From: a bacterium | GTDB lineage: Bacteria > Coprothermobacterota > Coprothermobacteria > Coprothermobacterales > JAADFF01 | DNA length: 6,440 bases | Assembly: GCA_027063755.1 (NCBI GenBank) | Contig: JAMORD010000108.1 | Coordinates: 1 to 6,440, forward strand | Direction of reading: 5' to 3' | In this document: positions 1-6,440 of the stretch, one piece after another | How positions within the stretch are numbered: position 1 is the first letter of the stretch | How the letters are laid out: the number at the start of each line of letters is the position of its first letter | Program-made: the position numbers and the translations under genes | Notes under the pieces: model-generated | Told to the model about the DNA's origin: nothing | The model's input: the letters and a program-made list of their open reading frames with translations, nothing else | Databases searched by the model: none

Positions 1-513
1 GTGGGAAGAGTGAAGGAAAAAGACCTTATCAAACGGGCAAAAAAAGGAGATGTAGAGGCATTTGAGAAGTTGTTTACCCGTTTTGAAAGGGATATATACA
101 CCCTTGCATATCGCTTTGTAGGAAACAAAGAAGATGCAGAAGATGTACTACAGAATGTGGCCCTCAAGATGTGGGAGCATTTAAAGAATTTTAAAGGTAA
201 ATCATCTCTGTGGACATGGCTTTATCGCATTACCGTTAATGAGTCTATGCGTATGCTGAAACATAGAAAGAGCACATATAGTCTTCCGAGACATCTCAGC
301 ACACCGTCTCCCGATATCCATTTAGAAATAGAGGACCTTATCATGAGATTGCCGGACAGAGAAAGAGTTGTTATACTGCTAAGAGATGTTTATAACTACA
401 CATTTGAAGAAATAGCGGACATGATGGAAACTTCACCCGGTAATGTGAGGGTCATTCTTCACAGGGCGAGAAAACATTTAAAAGCCATGTGGGTAAGGGG
501 GAGAAAGACATGA
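1..513 (+). CDS. ECF-family RNA polymerase sigma factor (RpoE-like)
   Basis: This 170-residue protein has the two-domain layout of group 4 (ECF) sigma factors. Sigma region 2 covers about residues 13-92, with the typical DAEDVLQ stretch at 45-51 and the core-binding/-10-recognition helices ending in WTWLYRITVNE at 71-81. A short linker (93-108) follows. Region 4 (109-162) has the -35-binding helix-turn-helix, seen as YTFEEIADMM followed by NVRVILHRARKHL. Such proteins direct RNA polymerase to stress or envelope promoters and are normally held by an anti-sigma factor. The next gene overlaps this one by 4 bases and fits that role. The GTG at base 1 gives an N-terminus typical of the family (an LIKRAKKGD-like stretch by residue 9), so the gene is probably complete, but its ribosome binding site and promoter lie outside the window. 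The family is clear; the regulon is unknown. Confidence 0.93.
   Translation: MGRVKEKDLIKRAKKGDVEAFEKLFTRFERDIYTLAYRFVGNKEDAEDVLQNVALKMWEHLKNFKGKSSLWTWLYRITVNESMRMLKHRKSTYSLPRHLSTPSPDIHLEIEDLIMRLPDRERVVILLRDVYNYTFEEIADMMETSPGNVRVILHRARKHLKAMWVRGRKT
495..503 (+). promoter_or_regulatory. Ribosome binding site deciding the anti-sigma start
   Basis: AAGGGGGAG lies inside the end of the sigma-factor gene, 6 nt before the ATG at 510. That ATG overlaps the sigma-factor TGA as ATGA. The site favours 510 over the in-frame GTG at 489 and suggests translational coupling of the sigma factor and its partner. Confidence 0.7.
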
Positions 514-824
514 GAATGGCTGAATTTATCAGGGGTGAGCTAACTCCTGAAGAAGAAATGCAGATTGAGAGGCTTATTGCCACAGACCCTAAAGCAAGGG
601 AGGAGTATGAAGAGTGGCAGGAGTTTTTGGGTAATCTTGCGCTTCTTTCGCGTTATACTCATAAACCAAAAAGCAGACGATGGCGAGAGGCTATTAGAGT
701 AAAAGCTGAAGAAGAGCGCTATAGAAAAAAGAAATTCATTACAAGTGTTGGAATCATAACAGGTGTGATAGGAGGTGCTGCAACAGCAGCAGCCATTGCA
801 TATCTTGCAATAAGGAGGAAGTGA
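510..824 (+). CDS. Small membrane-anchored anti-sigma-like protein
   Basis: This is a 104-residue protein when started at the ATG at 510. Residues 4-40 (a GELTPEEEMQIERLI stretch, then an acidic helix) resemble the N-terminal helical fold of anti-sigma factors that clamp ECF sigmas. The position where the zinc-binding members carry a Cys-x-x-Cys pair reads TDPKARE, so a zinc site is absent. A basic segment (RYRKKK, about 71-75) leads into one strongly hydrophobic, Gly/Ala-rich helix (about 76-101), followed by only RRK. The protein is therefore probably a single-pass, tail-anchored membrane protein with essentially no external sensor domain. The ATGA overlap with the ECF gene is the usual arrangement of a sigma/anti-sigma pair. 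The role is inferred from position and this weak N-terminal resemblance. It could instead be an unrelated small membrane protein. Confidence 0.7.
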   Translation: MRMAEFIRGELTPEEEMQIERLIATDPKAREEYEEWQEFLGNLALLSRYTHKPKSRRWREAIRVKAEEERYRKKKFITSVGIITGVIGGAATAAAIAYLAIRRK

Positions 825-827
825 TAC

Positions 828-1244
828 ATGAAGCAGATACCCTTACCACATAAATGGCCCATGCTATTTGTAGACGACTATGAGATAACGGAAGATGGAA
901 TAATAGGTTATTACACTGTAGATGAAAAACTGCCTATGTTTGAAGGGCACTTTCCCGGCAACCCTATTATGCCTGGGGTGCTTCTTGTTGAGATGATAGC
1001 CCAAGTGGGTGGTGTGCTTGTCTATCATCTAATGAATAAAGAGTTTCACAACCCTATTACGCTTCTAACAGACATCAAAAATGCACGCTTTAAAGAGATT
1101 GTCAGACCTGGTGATAGGCTACAGATAAAGGCAAAGGCGACACCGCTAAAAGCCGGTCTTTATATCATAGATGGACAGGTTGAAAAAGATGGAAAAGTAT
1201 GTGCAAAAGCTACAGTTAGGGTACTTGTGAGGGAGGGAGAGTAG
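828..1244 (+). CDS. fabZ: FabZ-like 3-hydroxyacyl-[acyl-carrier-protein] dehydratase
   Basis: This 138-residue hot-dog-fold protein is close to the usual FabZ length of about 140-150. It opens with [15 protein letters not shown], the family's N-terminal signature. It carries the active-site block [22 protein letters not shown]-like at 38-59, with the expected catalytic His41 and Glu55. FabZ removes water from 3-hydroxyacyl-ACP to give trans-2-enoyl-ACP in the cytoplasmic type II fatty-acid cycle. The downstream gene encodes a FabK-like reductase for the next step, which supports this function. AAGGAGG at 812-818 lies 9 nt before the ATG, giving strong initiation just after the anti-sigma gene. 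No other fatty-acid genes (fabD, fabF, fabG, acpP) are in the window, so this may be a specialised or second FabZ. Confidence 0.9.
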
Positions 1245-2147
1245 GTGGATATTTGCAGTCTGTTAAATATAGAATATCCCATATTTCAAGGTGGTATGGC
1301 TCATGTGGCAAAGGCTCCGCTTGTGGCAGCTGTGTCGGAAGCGGGGGGGCTTGGCATAATAGGTGGCGCCGGTATGAAGCCTGAGGAGCTGAGAGAAGAA
1401 ATTAGGAAAGTGAAGAAGCTGACTTCCAAGCCTTTCGGTGTCAATCTCATGCTTCTTATGGGTTATATAGAGGAACAGATAAAAGTGGTGATAGAAGAGG
1501 GGGTTCCTGTTGTCACCACGGGGGCTGGTTCCCCGGCGCCATTTCTTAAAGAGCTTAAGGAGCATGGTGTGAAGGTTTTCCCCCTTGTCGGTTCAGCATC
1601 GCTGGCTGTTCGTATGGAGCGTATGGGGGTAGATGGTGTTGTTGTTGAGGGGAAAGAGTCGGGAGGACATATAGGTTATGTGTCAACTCTTCCGCTTCTG
1701 ACGGCTACGCTGCAGAAGGTGAAGAAGATACCTGTTATTGCTGCCGGTGGTATTGGAGTGCCCGAGGCTGCCAAGGCTGTAAAAGTACTTGGTGCAGCCG
1801 GTATACAGATGGGAACGCGCTTTGTTGCATCAGAAGAAGCCCCTGTCAGCAATACATATAGGGAGATTGTGCTGAAAGCCAACGAGCGCTCTACTGTAGA
1901 AGTGGGGTATCGCTTTAGACATGGCATGAGGCTCTACAAAAATGCCCTTGCCCGTAAACTAATGGATGCCGAGATGAAGGGTGATGAGAAACTCTTTGAA
2001 CATCTTGCCCGTGGAACGCTCCGCAAAGCCGTAGAGGAGGGTGATCCAGACGGTGGCATGTATATGATAGGTCAGTCGGCAGGTAGCATATGGGACATAA
2101 AACCCGTGGCTGAGATTATAAATGATTTTGCAGAGGTGTTAAAATAA
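1245..2147 (+). CDS. fabK: FabK-like FMN-dependent enoyl-[acyl-carrier-protein] reductase
   Basis: This 300-residue TIM-barrel flavoprotein belongs to the nitronate monooxygenase/FabK superfamily. The features seen fit FabK. PIFQGGMA (12-19) and AGGLGIIGG (33-41) are near the N-terminus, and a TTGAGSP loop is at 91-97. EGKESGGHIG (135-144) contains His142, at the position of the conserved active-site His of FabK. The FMN-phosphate-binding stretch IAAGGIG is at 165-171, and MGTRF is at 189-193. FabK reduces trans-2-enoyl-ACP with NAD(P)H, completing each elongation round in bacteria that use it in place of or beside FabI. The preceding fabZ ends in TAG directly followed by this GTG start, with an AGGGAGGGAG ribosome site (1230-1239). 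Nitronate monooxygenase is the main alternative; the fabZ neighbour and the GGHIG motif favour FabK. Confidence 0.87.
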   Translation: MDICSLLNIEYPIFQGGMAHVAKAPLVAAVSEAGGLGIIGGAGMKPEELREEIRKVKKLTSKPFGVNLMLLMGYIEEQIKVVIEEGVPVVTTGAGSPAPFLKELKEHGVKVFPLVGSASLAVRMERMGVDGVVVEGKESGGHIGYVSTLPLLTATLQKVKKIPVIAAGGIGVPEAAKAVKVLGAAGIQMGTRFVASEEAPVSNTYREIVLKANERSTVEVGYRFRHGMRLYKNALARKLMDAEMKGDEKLFEHLARGTLRKAVEEGDPDGGMYMIGQSAGSIWDIKPVAEIINDFAEVLK

Positions 2148-2165
2148 CATTTGGAGGTGGTGGCC

Positions 2166-2498
2166 ATGGGGCTAATGGATAATATCAAGAAAACAGCTGA
2201 AACAGCTAGTCAGAAGATGAAAGTGCTTGCCGACATAGCAAAGTTAACGGCAGAAAAAAAGAGTGTACTTACCCTAATGAAGAAGACATATGAAAATGCC
2301 GGTGAGACAATCATGTCTTTATATAGAGACAAGCGTGATGCCCATGCATTGGAGCCTGTCCTTGACGATTTTCTTGAAAAAATTCTGAATCTTGAGCAAA
2401 AACTGAGAAACATAGAAGATCAGATTGCCGCCAAACGCCGTGAGGCAGCAGAGGCCGGTGTAGATGAGTCGGAGATAAAAAAGGCCGAAGAGGACTAA
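2166..2498 (+). CDS. Small Cys-free coiled-coil protein of unknown function
   Basis: I do not recognise a named family. Starting at the ATG at 2166 (GGAGGTGG at 2153-2160, 5 nt upstream) gives 110 residues. The in-frame TTG at 2151 would sit on top of this ribosome site and is unlikely. The protein is highly charged and almost entirely helical. It has an N-terminal stretch MGLMDNIKKTAETASQ, then two helical segments (about 16-55 and 60-100) with heptad-like Leu/Ile spacing, and an acidic end. It has no cysteine, signal peptide or membrane segment. The N-terminal style recalls the helical leader of small zinc-ribbon proteins of Firmicutes-type bacteria, but no ribbon follows. It is the last gene of the operon, 18 bases after fabK, so it is probably co-expressed with the lipid genes. 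Any role in scaffolding or at the membrane surface is a guess. Confidence 0.75.
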   Translation: MGLMDNIKKTAETASQKMKVLADIAKLTAEKKSVLTLMKKTYENAGETIMSLYRDKRDAHALEPVLDDFLEKILNLEQKLRNIEDQIAAKRREAAEAGVDESEIKKAEED

Positions 2499-2518
2499 AT
2501 TTATAACATTGTGTAATG

Positions 2519-2549
2519 AAAGGGCGGGTATACCCGCCCTTTTTCTTTT
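2519..2549 (+). terminator. Rho-independent terminator of the sigma/fab operon
   Basis: GGGCGGG (2522-2528) pairs perfectly with CCCGCCC (2533-2539) around a TATA loop. The stem extends by AAA/TTT to 10 bp and is followed by TTTTTCTTTT at 2540-2549. It lies 20 bases after the coiled-coil gene stop. The last T of the run is also the first base of the TGTCC half-site of the next repeat. Confidence 0.95.
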
Positions 2550-2598
2550 GTCCTGATTTTTCGGACATATTGTCCGAGTTTTGGGGACAAGGTGTTAT
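2548..2598 (+). repeat. 51-bp direct repeat, copy A (promoter side of cassette 1)
   Basis: This stretch is identical over 51 bases to 3536-3586, in the same orientation. It holds four half-sites in a symmetric layout: TGTCC (2549), GGACA (2563), TGTCC (2571) and GGACA (2585), spaced N9, N3 and N9. The centre is the perfect palindrome TCGGACATATTGTCCGA (2561-2577), and the outer TTGTCC/GGACAA arms also pair. It starts on the T-run of the operon terminator and ends inside the TATAAT -10 element of the cassette. Likely roles are an operator for the first cassette gene, a cassette end, or both. Confidence 0.95.
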
Positions 2599-2601
2599 AA
2601 T
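2596..2601 (+). promoter_or_regulatory. Consensus -10 element of cassette 1
   Basis: TATAAT lies exactly 6 nt after the last GGACA of repeat A. The same spacing is found in front of cassette 2. No good TTGACA-like -35 is visible at 16-18 nt, and a TGTCC half-site falls in that region instead. The predicted transcript start is near 2608, only a few bases before the first ATG (2611), so the message would have almost no leader. The hexamer straddles the repeat end and is therefore not formed at copy B. Confidence 0.6.
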
Positions 2602-2610
2602 TACTGGGGA

Positions 2611-3168
2611 ATGAATATGACAGAGAAATATAGAGACATTATTGCAAAATTGCTACTTTTAGAAGAACCCTTTGGGGTGAGAAAAAAGGCCGATGAATTG
2701 GGGGTTCCTAGAAGCACATTACATGGGATCCTATCTTTTCTTTTATCAAAGAATGTCTTGTTAAAACAAGGAAAACAGTATGTGGTAAATCACAATTATT
2801 GGTATACCCGCATTCTTAAGGTATATACATGGATTCCAATACTGGCAGAATGTGTAAATGAGGTGTTTCAGTCTCAAGATATTTCTGTTGGTATATTTGG
2901 TAGTTTTGCCACCGGTATGGCACGGGAGAGTAGTGATGTTGATATCTGGATTTACCCGTGGACACCGGAGCTTGTTGCTTATATCTTGAAAATGGAGCAG
3001 GATTTGAATAAGTCTGTAGATGTTGTAAAACTTACTAACGATGAGATTATGCGTATTCCAAAAGAGTTTCCTGTCTTTTGGAGTGCTATGACAAGTGTTA
3101 GCATCACGGTGAAAGGGGACGATATTCTTGATATCTATGGAAGAGTGCAAGAAAAACAGGTATCTTAG
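2611..3168 (+). CDS. Winged-helix/minimal nucleotidyltransferase (MntA-like), cassette 1
   Basis: This 185-residue protein has two parts. Residues about 5-60 form a predicted winged helix, with VRKKADELGVPRSTL as the helix-turn-helix, then a short wing and YVVNH. Residues about 85-185 form a minimal nucleotidyltransferase domain: Gly97-Ser98, ten residues, then Asp109-x-Asp111 (GS-X10-DxD), and a third acidic residue, Asp137, in KSVDVV. In the MntA/HepT systems such enzymes AMPylate and silence a HEPN toxin encoded next to them, and here a HEPN-like gene overlaps the 3' end. The winged helix suggests it also binds DNA, perhaps the flanking repeats. ATG 2611 is chosen because the homologue at 4602-5177 then aligns without gaps from Met1 to the GS and DxD residues. 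ATG 2617 has a better placed GGGGA. Toxin-antitoxin function is inferred. Confidence 0.85.
   Translation: MNMTEKYRDIIAKLLLLEEPFGVRKKADELGVPRSTLHGILSFLLSKNVLLKQGKQYVVNHNYWYTRILKVYTWIPILAECVNEVFQSQDISVGIFGSFATGMARESSDVDIWIYPWTPELVAYILKMEQDLNKSVDVVKLTNDEIMRIPKEFPVFWSAMTSVSITVKGDDILDIYGRVQEKQVS
3113..3130 (+). promoter_or_regulatory. Internal ribosome site and TTG start of HEPN gene 1
   Basis: AAGGGGA (3113-3119) lies 8 nt before TTG 3128-3130, inside the nucleotidyltransferase gene. The ATG at 3137 would be 17 nt away, too far. The second cassette has a TTG at the matching codon and no nearby ATG, which supports TTG in both. Confidence 0.65.
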
Positions 3169-3544
3169 GAAAGCTCCTGTGGATGTTCGTGCAGCAGAAG
3201 TCTTTCTACAAAAAGCCCGTAGATGGCTTGATGTTGCCTATCTTTTGAAGAGAGAGTCACCTGACTATACCAGTGAGATTGCCGCTACTGTTTATAATGT
3301 TTTTTTGCATGCCTCACAGGCATTTATGGCCCTTAAAGGGATGAAAGCTACCAAACATATATGCATGATTTGGTATGTAATAGAGCATGTTCCTCTATCT
3401 GGTATAGAGAGAATTTTTCTCAATCTTTACGAGTTTCGCAATACCATGTATTACACGGCTACACCGGGTACCATTGGCGATTTAGATGATATACTCAAAG
3501 TTGCATCTGAATTTGTAGATTGGGTTGATAGCCTGTTGTCCTGA
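3128..3544 (+). CDS. HEPN-like protein, partner of the nucleotidyltransferase, cassette 1
   Basis: This 138-residue, mostly helical protein has the size and layout of HEPN proteins paired with minimal nucleotidyltransferases. Helices begin around FLQKARRWLDVAYLL (26-40) and VYNVFLHASQAFMAL (55-69). Then come ATKHIC (74-79) and the last helices with LYEFRNTMYYT (100-110). The usual HEPN ribonuclease motif is R-X4-6-H. Here Arg104-Asn105 is followed by Tyr108-Tyr109 and no His, and the homologue in cassette 2 shows the same. RNase activity is therefore doubtful, although a Tyr at this place could still be a nucleotidylation target. The gene overlaps its partner by 41 bases and starts at TTG. 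Its last codons and its TGA (3542-3544) lie inside repeat B. HEPN assignment rests on layout, motif remnants and gene pairing. Confidence 0.75.
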   Translation: MISMEECKKNRYLRKAPVDVRAAEVFLQKARRWLDVAYLLKRESPDYTSEIAATVYNVFLHASQAFMALKGMKATKHICMIWYVIEHVPLSGIERIFLNLYEFRNTMYYTATPGTIGDLDDILKVASEFVDWVDSLLS

Positions 3545-3586
3545 TTTTTCGGACATATTGTCCGAGTTTTGGGGACAAGGTGTTAT
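3536..3586 (+). repeat. 51-bp direct repeat, copy B (3' side of cassette 1)
   Basis: This copy is identical to 2548-2598. It encodes the last two codons and stop of the HEPN gene on the + strand, and contains the TAA (3583-3585) of the converging lipoprotein gene on the - strand. Its central palindrome, TCGGACATATTGTCCGA (3549-3565), is followed by GTTTTGG. That is at best a weak terminator between the convergent genes. The TATAAT seen at copy A is not formed here, because the next bases are CTA. Confidence 0.95.
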
Positions 3587-4119
3587 CTACTATATACGGC
3601 TACGGCTTCCCCCCATGCAAGAATATGCCCTTTCATGGCTTTTTCAAGTATCTGTTTTGTGACATTGCCTGACAGGTTTAATGTGCTGTCAAGGGCATAT
3701 ACCTTGATGTGATAGTGATGATCCCCATGTCCCTTTGGTGGACAAGGTCCTCCATAGCCTATCTTGTGGAAATCATTGATGCCCTGTGTGAAGGATATAC
3801 CATCTTTGACGGTATTTCTTGTCTTGGGAACTGCCTCGGGTATTGTAGTTGTTGGTGTAATGTTCCATGCTACCCAGTGCACCCATGTGCCTACTGGGGC
3901 ATCTGGGTCGTCCATAACAATAGCCAATGCTTTGGTGCCTTCTGGTATATTCCCAATATGTATCTTGGGAGATATATCTGCCCCATCACATGTGTACTGA
4001 CGGGGAAACCTCTGAAAATCAAGAGATACACTTAGCGTTTTCATACTGTCCACCCCCTGCGAACATGCAGATAATAAGATAGATAATGCCAAAATGGTAA
4101 TCCACAGTATCTTTTTCAT
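3583..4119 (-). CDS. YbhB/YbcL-type PEBP (Raf kinase inhibitor-like) lipoprotein
   Basis: The ATG at 4117-4119 gives 178 residues. It is preferred to the in-frame GTG at 4126-4128 because GAGG (4128-4131) lies 8 nt upstream of it. The N-terminus is a lipoprotein signal (KK, hydrophobic run, LLSAC) with lipobox Cys19, so the protein should be lipid-anchored outside the cytoplasm. The phosphatidylethanolamine-binding fold is shown by its two signature regions: DDPDAPVGTWVHWVAWNI (about residues 70-87) and GYGGPCPPKGHGDHHYHIKVYALD-like (about 121-144), with the conserved His residues of the ligand pocket. The exact substrate of bacterial PEBP proteins is not well established. The gene runs in the same direction as cassette 2 upstream and may receive read-through from it. 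Its stop codon lies inside repeat B. Confidence 0.93.
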   Translation of the reverse strand: MKKILWITILALSILLSACSQGVDSMKTLSVSLDFQRFPRQYTCDGADISPKIHIGNIPEGTKALAIVMDDPDAPVGTWVHWVAWNITPTTTIPEAVPKTRNTVKDGISFTQGINDFHKIGYGGPCPPKGHGDHHYHIKVYALDSTLNLSGNVTKQILEKAMKGHILAWGEAVAVYSR

Positions 4120-4175
4120 AATCCCCACCTCTATAAGTATTGTATTACAAAGGCTTTTGTGATGGTTTTATATAT

Positions 4176-4216
4176 TGTCCCACTTTTTGAAACGGTTTGT
4201 CCCGTGTATCGGGACA
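4176..4216 (-). repeat. 41-bp imperfect direct repeat, copy C (3' side of cassette 2)
   Basis: It matches 5208-5248 at 37 of 41 positions. Read on the + strand it has TGTCC at 4176 and 4198 and GGACA at 4212, the same spacing (N17, N9) as in the 51-bp repeats. TGTCCCG/CGGGACA (4198-4204 and 4210-4216) form a perfect 7-bp inverted repeat. It touches the HEPN stop codon (4217-4219) and lies 57 bases upstream of the PEBP lipoprotein ATG, so it may affect that gene's transcription. The C-terminal side carries an AT-rich run but no TATAAT at the 6-nt spacing. Confidence 0.88.
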
Positions 4217-4648
4217 TTACTTTTGAAGTATAGACTGAGTTTGATCAATAAGTATTTGAGATAACTTTATGAGTTCATCTACATCAATGGAAGAAATGTT
4301 GTCAACGGTGTAATATATGGAATTTCTTATCTGGTAAAGCAGAAAATATGTGTCAATAATATCATTGCCAAGGGTATCGTGATATGTTTCCTGGAGATAT
4401 AGGATTCCACATATATGTTTAGTTGCCTGTTTGTCATCATGAGATAGGATAGCTTCCATAGAGAAGAGAAAGATATCGTATATGAGAGAGAGTGCAGTTT
4501 CGGGATGGGTATATAGTTGATTTCTTGTGCCAATAACAAAGTCAAGCCATCTTTTTGCCTTATAGAGAAAGGATAGGGCATCTTCCTTATTTATTGCCTT
4601 TTTATTCCTGATGAACCTTTTTTCTTTGCACTCTTGCCACGATATCAA
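4217..4648 (-). CDS. HEPN-like protein, partner of the nucleotidyltransferase, cassette 2
   Basis: This 143-residue homologue of the HEPN-like protein at 3128-3544 shares the start MIS-x-x-ECK and KA-x-RWLD (30-36). It also shares an exact ATKHIC (75-80) and RN-x-x-YYT (108-114). The R-X4-6-H ribonuclease motif is again missing its His: Arg108-Asn109 is followed by Tyr112-Tyr113. Because both diverged copies keep these same residues, the tyrosines and the ATKHIC block are probably functional. The start is TTG at 4646-4648 with a strong ribosome site and no ATG nearby. It overlaps the upstream nucleotidyltransferase gene by 47 bases. The TAA touches repeat C directly. It is probably a partner or substrate of the nucleotidyltransferase; toxicity cannot be judged from the sequence. 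Confidence 0.75.
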   Translation of the reverse strand: MISWQECKEKRFIRNKKAINKEDALSFLYKAKRWLDFVIGTRNQLYTHPETALSLIYDIFLFSMEAILSHDDKQATKHICGILYLQETYHDTLGNDIIDTYFLLYQIRNSIYYTVDNISSIDVDELIKLSQILIDQTQSILQK

Positions 4649-5177
4649 TGAGTTCCTCTCCTTTAATAGTTATTTCACTACTAATGATACTTGTAAGGAA
4701 TCCAGGATTTTCCCTTGTAAGGTTTTCTATCATTTCATCTGATAGGGTTAATAGGTCTATATCTTTATTGAAAATAGCCATGAGCGATGATAGTAGTCGT
4801 CCTCTTTCAATAAAACCAATGGGTGTAGGGTGATACACCCAGATATCTATATCACTATCTTGATGATTCTTTCCCGAGGCATAGCTACCGTATATACCTA
4901 CACTGTAGGGGGTATTCTGAAAGACCTTTACAATCTGTGTTCCAATATAAGGGATAAAGACAAATTGCTTTAAACTACGGGTTTTAAAGTAACCGTGGTT
5001 TATGATGTATGTTATCCCAGTTTTTCTGACAATCTTTTCTTCTTCTAAGGTTTTTATGATTCTCCATAGTTTGCTCTTAGGTATACCAAGATTTGTAGCT
5101 GTTTCCCTTATTCTTATTGGTTTTTCCATTTCCAGTAACTGCCTTAGTATTGGTGACCAATCTTCTCTTAGGTTCAT
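4602..5177 (-). CDS. Winged-helix/minimal nucleotidyltransferase (MntA-like), cassette 2
   Basis: This 191-residue homologue of the protein at 2611-3168 has an N-terminal winged helix (about 10-60; IRETATNLGIPKSKL is the helix-turn-helix). The nucleotidyltransferase domain has Gly97-Ser98, ten residues, Asp109-x-Asp111, and Asp141 in KDIDLL. The GS-X10-DxD catalytic signature is intact and sits at the same residue numbers as in the first copy. The ATG at 5175-5177 has AGGGGG (5185-5190) 7 nt upstream. By analogy with MntA it may nucleotidylate the HEPN-like protein encoded by the overlapping downstream gene. Through its winged helix it may also bind repeats C and D and control its own operon. 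The two cassettes have diverged enough in protein and repeat that each could be specific for its own repeat. Confidence 0.85.
   Translation of the reverse strand: MNLREDWSPILRQLLEMEKPIRIRETATNLGIPKSKLWRIIKTLEEEKIVRKTGITYIINHGYFKTRSLKQFVFIPYIGTQIVKVFQNTPYSVGIYGSYASGKNHQDSDIDIWVYHPTPIGFIERGRLLSSLMAIFNKDIDLLTLSDEMIENLTRENPGFLTSIISSEITIKGEELIDIVARVQRKKVHQE
4646..4664 (-). promoter_or_regulatory. Internal ribosome site and TTG start of HEPN gene 2
   Basis: On the - strand AAAGGAGAGG (4664 to 4655) lies 6 nt before the TTG at 4648-4646. It is inside the coding region of the nucleotidyltransferase. The site is nearly ideal, and no in-frame ATG or GTG follows within the conserved N-terminal block, so the TTG start is well supported. 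Confidence 0.75.
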
Positions 5178-5207: not shown

Positions 5208-5248
5208 TGTCCCACTTTTTGAAACACTTTGTTCCGTATATCGGGACA
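5208..5248 (-). repeat. 41-bp imperfect direct repeat, copy D (promoter side of cassette 2)
   Basis: It pairs with copy C at 37 of 41 positions. On the + strand it reads TGTCC (5208), TGTTC (5230, one change) and GGACA (5244), with TGTTCCG/CGGGACA as an inverted repeat around TATAT. The outer edge falls on the last T of the gltX terminator T-run. Its inner edge is 6 nt from the TATAAT box. It is a likely operator for the cassette. Confidence 0.88.
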
Positions 5249-5281
5249 AAAACAAGAAGGGCCCCCAAGGGGCCCTTCTTG
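5248..5281 (-). terminator. Rho-independent terminator of gltX
   Basis: CAAGAAGGGCCCC (5253-5265) pairs perfectly with GGGGCCCTTCTTG (5269-5281) around a 3-base loop. On the - strand the 13-bp stem is followed by TTTTT (5252 to 5248). It lies 24 bases beyond the gltX stop. Confidence 0.93.
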
Positions 5282-5305
5282 GTGGTGATGAGATAGACTG
5301 TATTT

Positions 5306-6440
5306 TTACATTTGTGATACGGCTTTTCTTAGTCTTCTTACGACGGTGTCTTTGGGCATGGCCTCCAGCATGTGGAACAGAGATGGGCCAACTGTTTTTC
5401 CAGATACGGCTATTCTGACAATGGGGAAGAACTTTCTCGGCTTAAACTCTTTTTTGGCTGCCACATCTCTCATAGCCTGCTCTATGTTTTCTGCATTCCA
5501 CTCTGTGAGAGATTCAAATGCATCGGCAAGGTCAGCCAGTGCTGGCACCATATCTTTGCCTTTCTCCCACTGCTTCTGAGCTTTTTCATCCCACTGGAAG
5601 TCATCTGTGAAGAAGAAATCTCCCTTGTCAACAAAATCAAGAAGGGTATACGCCCTTTCCCTGAGAAGCTCAAGCACAACTTCCCAGTTGTCGGGCCACT
5701 GGTAGCCTTTTTCCTCCATAAATGGTTCAAGTTCCTTTTTCAATTCTTCAAGAGACAGTCTCTTGAGGTGCTCCCTGTTGATATGTCTCAGTTTGTCGTG
5801 GTCAAACACAGCAGGGTGGGATGTAATCTTTTCTATCTCAAAGAGTCTTATAAGTTCTTCGGGCTCATAAACCTCTTTGTTTTCCTCATAGGAGGCACCA
5901 AGGAGTGCCAAGAAGTTAAACATGGCCTTGGCAAGGTAGCCCTGCTTCTTATACTCCTCTACAGATACTGCACCATGTCTCTTAGATAACTTTGTCTTAT
6001 CTTCACCAAGAATCATGGGTATGTGTGCAAATTTAGGTACATCCCAGCCCAGTATCTCGTAAAGGATAATCTGCTTTGGTGTGTTGGAGATATGGTCTTC
6101 TCCACGCATAACAAGGGTAACGCCCATGTCGTGGTCGTCTACAACAACGGCAAAGTTGTATGTTGGTGTGCCATCGGAACGGACAATGATGAAGTCATCA
6201 AGTTCAGATATTTTTATGGATATATCACCTTTGACAAGGTCGTGCCACTTGATTTCTCTATCAGGGTTTTCGTCGGGTAGTTTAATGCGGATAGCTGGCT
6301 TTCTGCCCTCGGCTCTCAGTTTCTCCTTTTCCTCTTCAGTTAGATGTAGACATCGGCGGTCGTATTTGTAAGGTTTACCTTGCTTCTGTGCCTCTTTTCT
6401 GCGGGCCTCAAGCTCTTCAGGTGTGCAGAAACATTCATAG
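5306..6440 (-). CDS. gltX: Glutamyl-tRNA synthetase, N-terminus cut by the window edge
   Basis: The frame is open from the right edge to TAA at 5306-5308, giving 377 visible residues. About 90-100 N-terminal residues, including the HIGH signature, lie outside the window. The visible part starts with YECFC and reaches YDRRC at 26-30, the Cys-x-Cys...Tyr...Cys zinc-site pattern of bacterial glutamyl-tRNA synthetases. VRSDGTPTYNFAVVVDD and MRGEDHISNTPKQ follow. The KMSKS-type ATP-binding loop reads KLSKRHGAVSV, and the helical anticodon-binding domain fills the C-terminal third. The enzyme charges tRNA-Glu with glutamate in the cytoplasm. In some bacteria it also charges tRNA-Gln; the sequence here does not decide that. 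The Met at 6127 is internal and is not the start. The gene has its own terminator. Confidence 0.97.
   Translation of the reverse strand, partial: YECFCTPEELEARRKEAQKQGKPYKYDRRCLHLTEEEKEKLRAEGRKPAIRIKLPDENPDREIKWHDLVKGDISIKISELDDFIIVRSDGTPTYNFAVVVDDHDMGVTLVMRGEDHISNTPKQIILYEILGWDVPKFAHIPMILGEDKTKLSKRHGAVSVEEYKKQGYLAKAMFNFLALLGASYEENKEVYEPEELIRLFEIEKITSHPAVFDHDKLRHINREHLKRLSLEELKKELEPFMEEKGYQWPDNWEVVLELLRERAYTLLDFVDKGDFFFTDDFQWDEKAQKQWEKGKDMVPALADLADAFESLTEWNAENIEQAMRDVAAKKEFKPRKFFPIVRIAVSGKTVGPSLFHMLEAMPKDTVVRRLRKAVSQM

Follow-up and report, generated by a model that had tools for sequence, protein, structure and literature searches.

Among the predicted toxin-antitoxin modules of prokaryotes, HEPN/MNT pairs have been called the most abundant (PMC7641770). 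They have been described as mobile, and their presence and absence between close relatives has been noted, with the route of movement left unexplained in the same study (PMC2701414). That study does not use the term "direct repeat", and the literature that we searched held no report of direct repeats bounding MNT/HEPN pairs. In Shewanella, the MNT antitoxin has been shown to bind its own promoter, where palindromes lie near -10 and -35 (PMC4621449). According to the accounts in PMC1643837 and PMC3031569, insertion with long target duplication has been reported from Helicobacter pylori, in its restriction-modification systems (Nobusato et al. 2000; Furuta et al. 2010).

We analyzed a window of 6,440 nucleotides, the entire contig C108 of a fragmented 1.5-Mb MAG, and compared it with one sister species, G001, a MAG labelled Dictyoglomota. 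The window contains two MNT/HEPN pairs that resemble the Helicobacter insertions, as these accounts describe them, in being small addiction-type modules placed between long direct repeats with no transposase. The repeats lie exactly at both ends of each pair, and for one pair, cassette B, the related genome without the insert carries a single copy. The likeness stops at the cargo, which here consists of wHTH-MNT and HEPN genes, at the host range, which here takes in Dictyoglomota and several distant lineages, and at the repeat itself, which in the window resembles the operon's own operator. Insertion sequences and transposons are recognized by a transposase, terminal inverted repeats, and a short target duplication; the cassettes consist of two genes only, between direct repeats of 41-51 bp.

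Two repeat-bounded cassettes

The sequence-only reading had placed identical 51-bp repeats around one MNT/HEPN operon, and both the coordinates and the identity proved exact: the two copies of the repeat, R_A, occupy 2548-2598 and 3536-3586 on the plus strand, and our search of the whole genome found it at these two places only. The upstream copy, preceded at a distance of 4 bp by the terminator-like hairpin of the left operon (2518-2543, plus strand), carries TGTCC-N9-GGACA boxes twice, 22 bp apart, and its last GGACA stands 6 bp before a TATAAT (2596-2601); it is presumed to be the promoter/operator. The gene of wHTH-MNT A, an antitoxin-like nucleotidyltransferase (2611-3168, plus strand; start at 2611 or 2617), gave a Polbeta score of 32.4 bits against a cut-off of 26.9 and encodes both the GS..G..SDVD motif and the third Asp. 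The gene of HEPN protein A (3128-3544, plus strand; start at 3128 or 3137; HEPN profile 21.0 bits, cut-off 22) overlaps the MNT gene, and its stop codon TGA falls within the downstream R_A copy, which also overlaps the stop codon of a convergent PEBP-family gene (3583-4116, minus strand; PBP 143 bits) situated between the two cassettes. The claim that the repeats leave no spare DNA was likewise borne out, as the upstream copy stops 18 bp before the MNT ATG at 2617 and the downstream copy starts inside the HEPN gene and provides its stop codon.

Beyond the PEBP gene lies a second, diverged MNT/HEPN pair (cassette B, 4217-5177, minus strand), and neither this cassette nor the likeness of the A and B repeats had been recorded in the sequence-only reading. 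HEPN protein B (4217-4648, minus strand) is 36% identical to HEPN A, and wHTH-MNT protein B (4602-5177, minus strand) is 37% identical to MNT A, with a Polbeta score of 42.2 bits and an N-terminal HTH_IclR match of 26.8 bits (cut-off 22). The 41-bp repeat R_B is found directly after the HEPN B stop (4176-4216, minus strand) and 30 bp before MNT B (5208-5248, minus strand), the copies being direct and 90% identical with four differences. The upstream copy is overlapped by a promoter-like TTCAAA-16-TATAAT site, and 4 bp after it begins the terminator-like hairpin that follows gltX (5253-5281, minus strand).

The pairs share with type VII HEPN/MNT modules (Makarova 2009, PMC2701414; PMC7641770) the overlapping genes and the patchy distribution, and they have an MNT gene upstream of and adjoining a HEPN gene, with the MNT motif GSx..SDxD intact. 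They differ in the N-terminal winged helix of the MNT protein and in the HEPN protein, in which the RNase motif Rx4-6H is absent: the corresponding stretch reads RNTMYYT in A and RNSIYYT in B, with Arg and Tyr conserved and no His, and a conserved H-x-C occurs at another place. The MNT proteins score 30.2 and 38.4 bits, below the curated MntA family cut-off of 60. With Rx4-6H absent from the HEPN proteins and the two MNT scores under that cut-off, we describe the pairs as like type VII modules and do not file them there. Profile matches to solved structures linked the HEPN protein to AF0298 (2hsb) and the MNT protein to an MNT (8xeh) and to LrpA (1i1g). The PADLOC candidate defence system PDC-M05 is represented by profiles of one protein of about 200 and one of about 150 amino acids (A and B), and these matched the window MNT and HEPN A weakly, with low scores. 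We regard the pairs as toxin-antitoxin-like, with an activity of that kind predicted.

A single-repeat site in the sister species

Contig C60 of G001 aligned to window positions 1-4204 and 5208-6440, and the two alignments join in one B-type repeat (L024:3383-3423). Cassette B is missing from G001, where precisely one repeat stands between the PEBP gene and gltX, and no other cassette B homologue was found in that genome. Cassette A is at the same place in G001 with its repeat pair, and its interior is 91.5% identical between the two species and its flanks 87.4%. The shared place and repeat pair, together with an interior about as diverged as the flanks, date cassette A before the species split. 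Among the four R_A copies, three sites distinguish the species, each species having its two copies in agreement, and no site distinguishes the copies; since the pair predates the split, this pattern of concerted sites, with none of the opposite kind, suggests that the copies were homogenised after speciation. GC content is 38.8% in cassette A and 35.0% in cassette B, against 44-45% around them.

The sequence-only reading had suggested a recent origin for cassette A, which its age does not support, and recombination between the repeat copies, which gained support from the G001 site lacking B and from the homogenised R_A copies. It had also predicted an empty site with a single repeat; such a site was found for cassette B, and none for cassette A with one sister species and both genomes being MAGs. 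A repeat pair fixed in relatives, occurring nowhere else and with no empty site had been named as the pattern that would speak against mobility, and it describes cassette A taken alone; cassette B departs from it, being present in one species and absent from the other. As seven further genomes of the order and phylum yielded no PEBP match when searched, and the comparison involves one sister species and MAGs, gain and loss of cassette B are not polarised.

We consider it probable that the MNT/HEPN pairs are horizontally acquired cassettes without a recombinase of their own, gained and lost by recombination at their repeats, and that in this genus the repeat is also operator-like. A circle bearing one repeat would enter a single-repeat site by a single crossover and add the whole pair, and the reverse excision would remove the whole pair and leave one repeat in the chromosome. 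Together the two steps would explain why one site has a single repeat and why the R_A copies look homogenised. We infer this route, with either gain or loss as its direction for cassette B.

The lone G001 repeat, whose counterpart in the window is 4176-4216, stands immediately upstream of PEBP. Its boxes are conserved and its N9 spacer is altered, and it may act as a PEBP operator.

Repeat layout and a possible operator

Compared in register, R_A and R_B match at 26 of 41 positions, a value that none of 5,000 shuffles reached, and they have the layout TGTCC-N17-TGTCC-N9-GGACA in common. Allowing at most one mismatch, this layout marks the four cassette ends in the whole genome and the three repeat copies in G001, and no other place in either; with the layout confined to cassettes, we rejected a dispersed-repeat origin. 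The GGACA-6-TATAAT register is equal in the sequences of cassettes A and B and of G001. Variable sites of R_A fell at none of the 20 positions in the boxes and at 6 of the 31 outside them (P = 0.07). A promoter scan reported a site for B and none for A, and the number of sites in the region was not above that in shuffles; for this reason we treat promoter function as predicted. In this genus the repeat looks like it doubles as the cassette's autoregulatory operator, and it is probably bound by the winged helix of the MNT protein. Given their likeness, the A and B repeats may be operators borne by the cassettes and not a duplicated target, unlike the repeats in other phyla.

The main rival builds on the same features and supposes that the wHTH-MNT protein binds both operon ends, for example in a repression loop, that selection and gene conversion maintain the downstream copy, and that B was lost at the repeat by an incidental deletion between direct repeats. 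It would account for a TGTCC-N9-GGACA layout held in common by two paralogous cassettes that are 37% alike and placed identically relative to TATAAT, for boxes that are invariant amid varying spacers and intact also in the lone G001 copy, and it has a precedent in the known MNT antitoxin that binds its own promoter (PMC4621449). In other phyla, however, the repeats are ends of neighboring coding genes and not operator-like, and yet they bound the same kind of pair. As the main explanation we think paired operators rather unlikely, and the operator and mobile-cassette readings may both hold.

Recurrence in other genomes

Profile and protein searches, covering 858 genomes in total, gave 34 usable wHTH-MNT/HEPN pairs, and by a single criterion applied to all, 10 of these lie between direct repeats of 34-75 bp; outside this genus the count is 7 of 31. 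The remaining 24 pairs have no repeats, which means that repeats are not obligatory. None of the 1,108 cross-locus controls, which compared unrelated loci, was positive, the top control scoring 53 and the weakest positive 60. The final genome search, run with the repeat pattern already noticed, added one counted case (G045). The 75-bp repeats of G376, which are 142-212 bp away from the genes and surrounded by repeat-rich intergenic sequence, make a weak case that is included in the count but kept apart.

Scanning 1.24 Mb in stretches from seven genomes for repeat pairs of at least 26 bp with at least 88% identity and a spacing of 0.7-1.6 kb, we found 13, with 8 bounding MNT/HEPN pairs and 5 not; since most of the genomes had been picked because their MNT/HEPN pair had repeats, the count of 7 of 31 gives the fairer estimate. 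Within the stretches fetched, the tested repeats of G138, G258, G394, G524, and G684 are confined to the two cassette ends, and the cassette repeats are the sole qualifying pair within 140 kb in G524 and within 108 kb in G684. At one further locus (L094), long repeats were rejected as cassette ends because they derive from tandem related genes.

In other phyla the repeats coincide with coding gene ends, whereas in the window R_A and R_B resemble each other and an operator. With gene names read from translations, the repeat corresponds to a gene 3' end in four genomes: G138 (porin-like gene), G524 (GNAT gene), G684 (pyruvate kinase gene), and G045 (GIY-YIG-like gene); in G258 a small gene has it as its 5' end, and in G394 it is intergenic. 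Each time that the repeat is a gene end, the neighboring gene has been kept whole, and in four cases (cassette A in both species, G138, and G258) the HEPN gene takes its stop codon from the repeat. The copies in G045 are 79% alike, and we read this pair as an older event. No empty site was found for any locus outside this genus; for the repeats of G138, G258, and G524, the relatives were non-syntenic, ended a contig at the site, or lacked the gene. Relatives of the query MNT proteins were found in none of the viral contigs, plasmids, and phages searched, and the R_A pattern had no copy in viral contigs.

Direct repeats at gene 3' ends that leave the end intact resemble the attL and attR sites of integrative elements, and a site-specific recombinase acting in trans could mobilize the cassettes, using as attachment cores the repeats that overlap gene ends. 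The repeats are wholly different between loci with no common core, and the window holds no recombinase gene; we judge this explanation improbable. Ordinary tandem duplication or dispersed repeats, associated with MNT/HEPN by chance, were already disfavored and are hardly credible: repeats do bracket other DNA too (at 108352 in G138, and as dispersed repeats in G258), but no control among the 1,108 reached the weakest positive and just five other such pairs occurred in the 1.24 Mb.

Implications and additional observations

A broader proposal, that wHTH-MNT/HEPN pairs are widespread recombinase-free mobile cassettes that enter at gene ends, duplicating 34-75 bp, by an undescribed route, is in our view tentative and on balance doubtful. 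The exact repeat bounds, the single-repeat site in the sister species, and the recurrence in distant lineages make the route of movement testable, and the results suggest that toxin-antitoxin-like pairs and restriction-modification systems enter and leave genomes in one common way.

At locus L050 of G376, short ACTCCACACTCCGTAC-type repeats crowd the intergenic regions around the MNT/HEPN pair. In G045, a lone wHTH-MNT gene and a HEPN fragment (L206:1258-2303) lie between repeats of about 103 bp that hold the start of an ABC-transporter-like gene; this locus was left out of the count. In G138, the 3' terminus of an AsmA-like gene recurs as an 87-bp direct repeat with 99% identity (L100:8352-9897; contig C5, 108352-109897), and the 1.4-kb module between the copies comprises a small secreted-looking ORF and an unrelated two-gene pair. 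This case suggests that the repeat-bounded pattern may extend beyond MNT/HEPN. To the left of cassette A, positions 1-2147 of the window contain sigma-factor-like and small membrane-protein genes followed by FabZ-like and enoyl-reductase/NMO-like genes in one run, and the arrangement is the same in G001.
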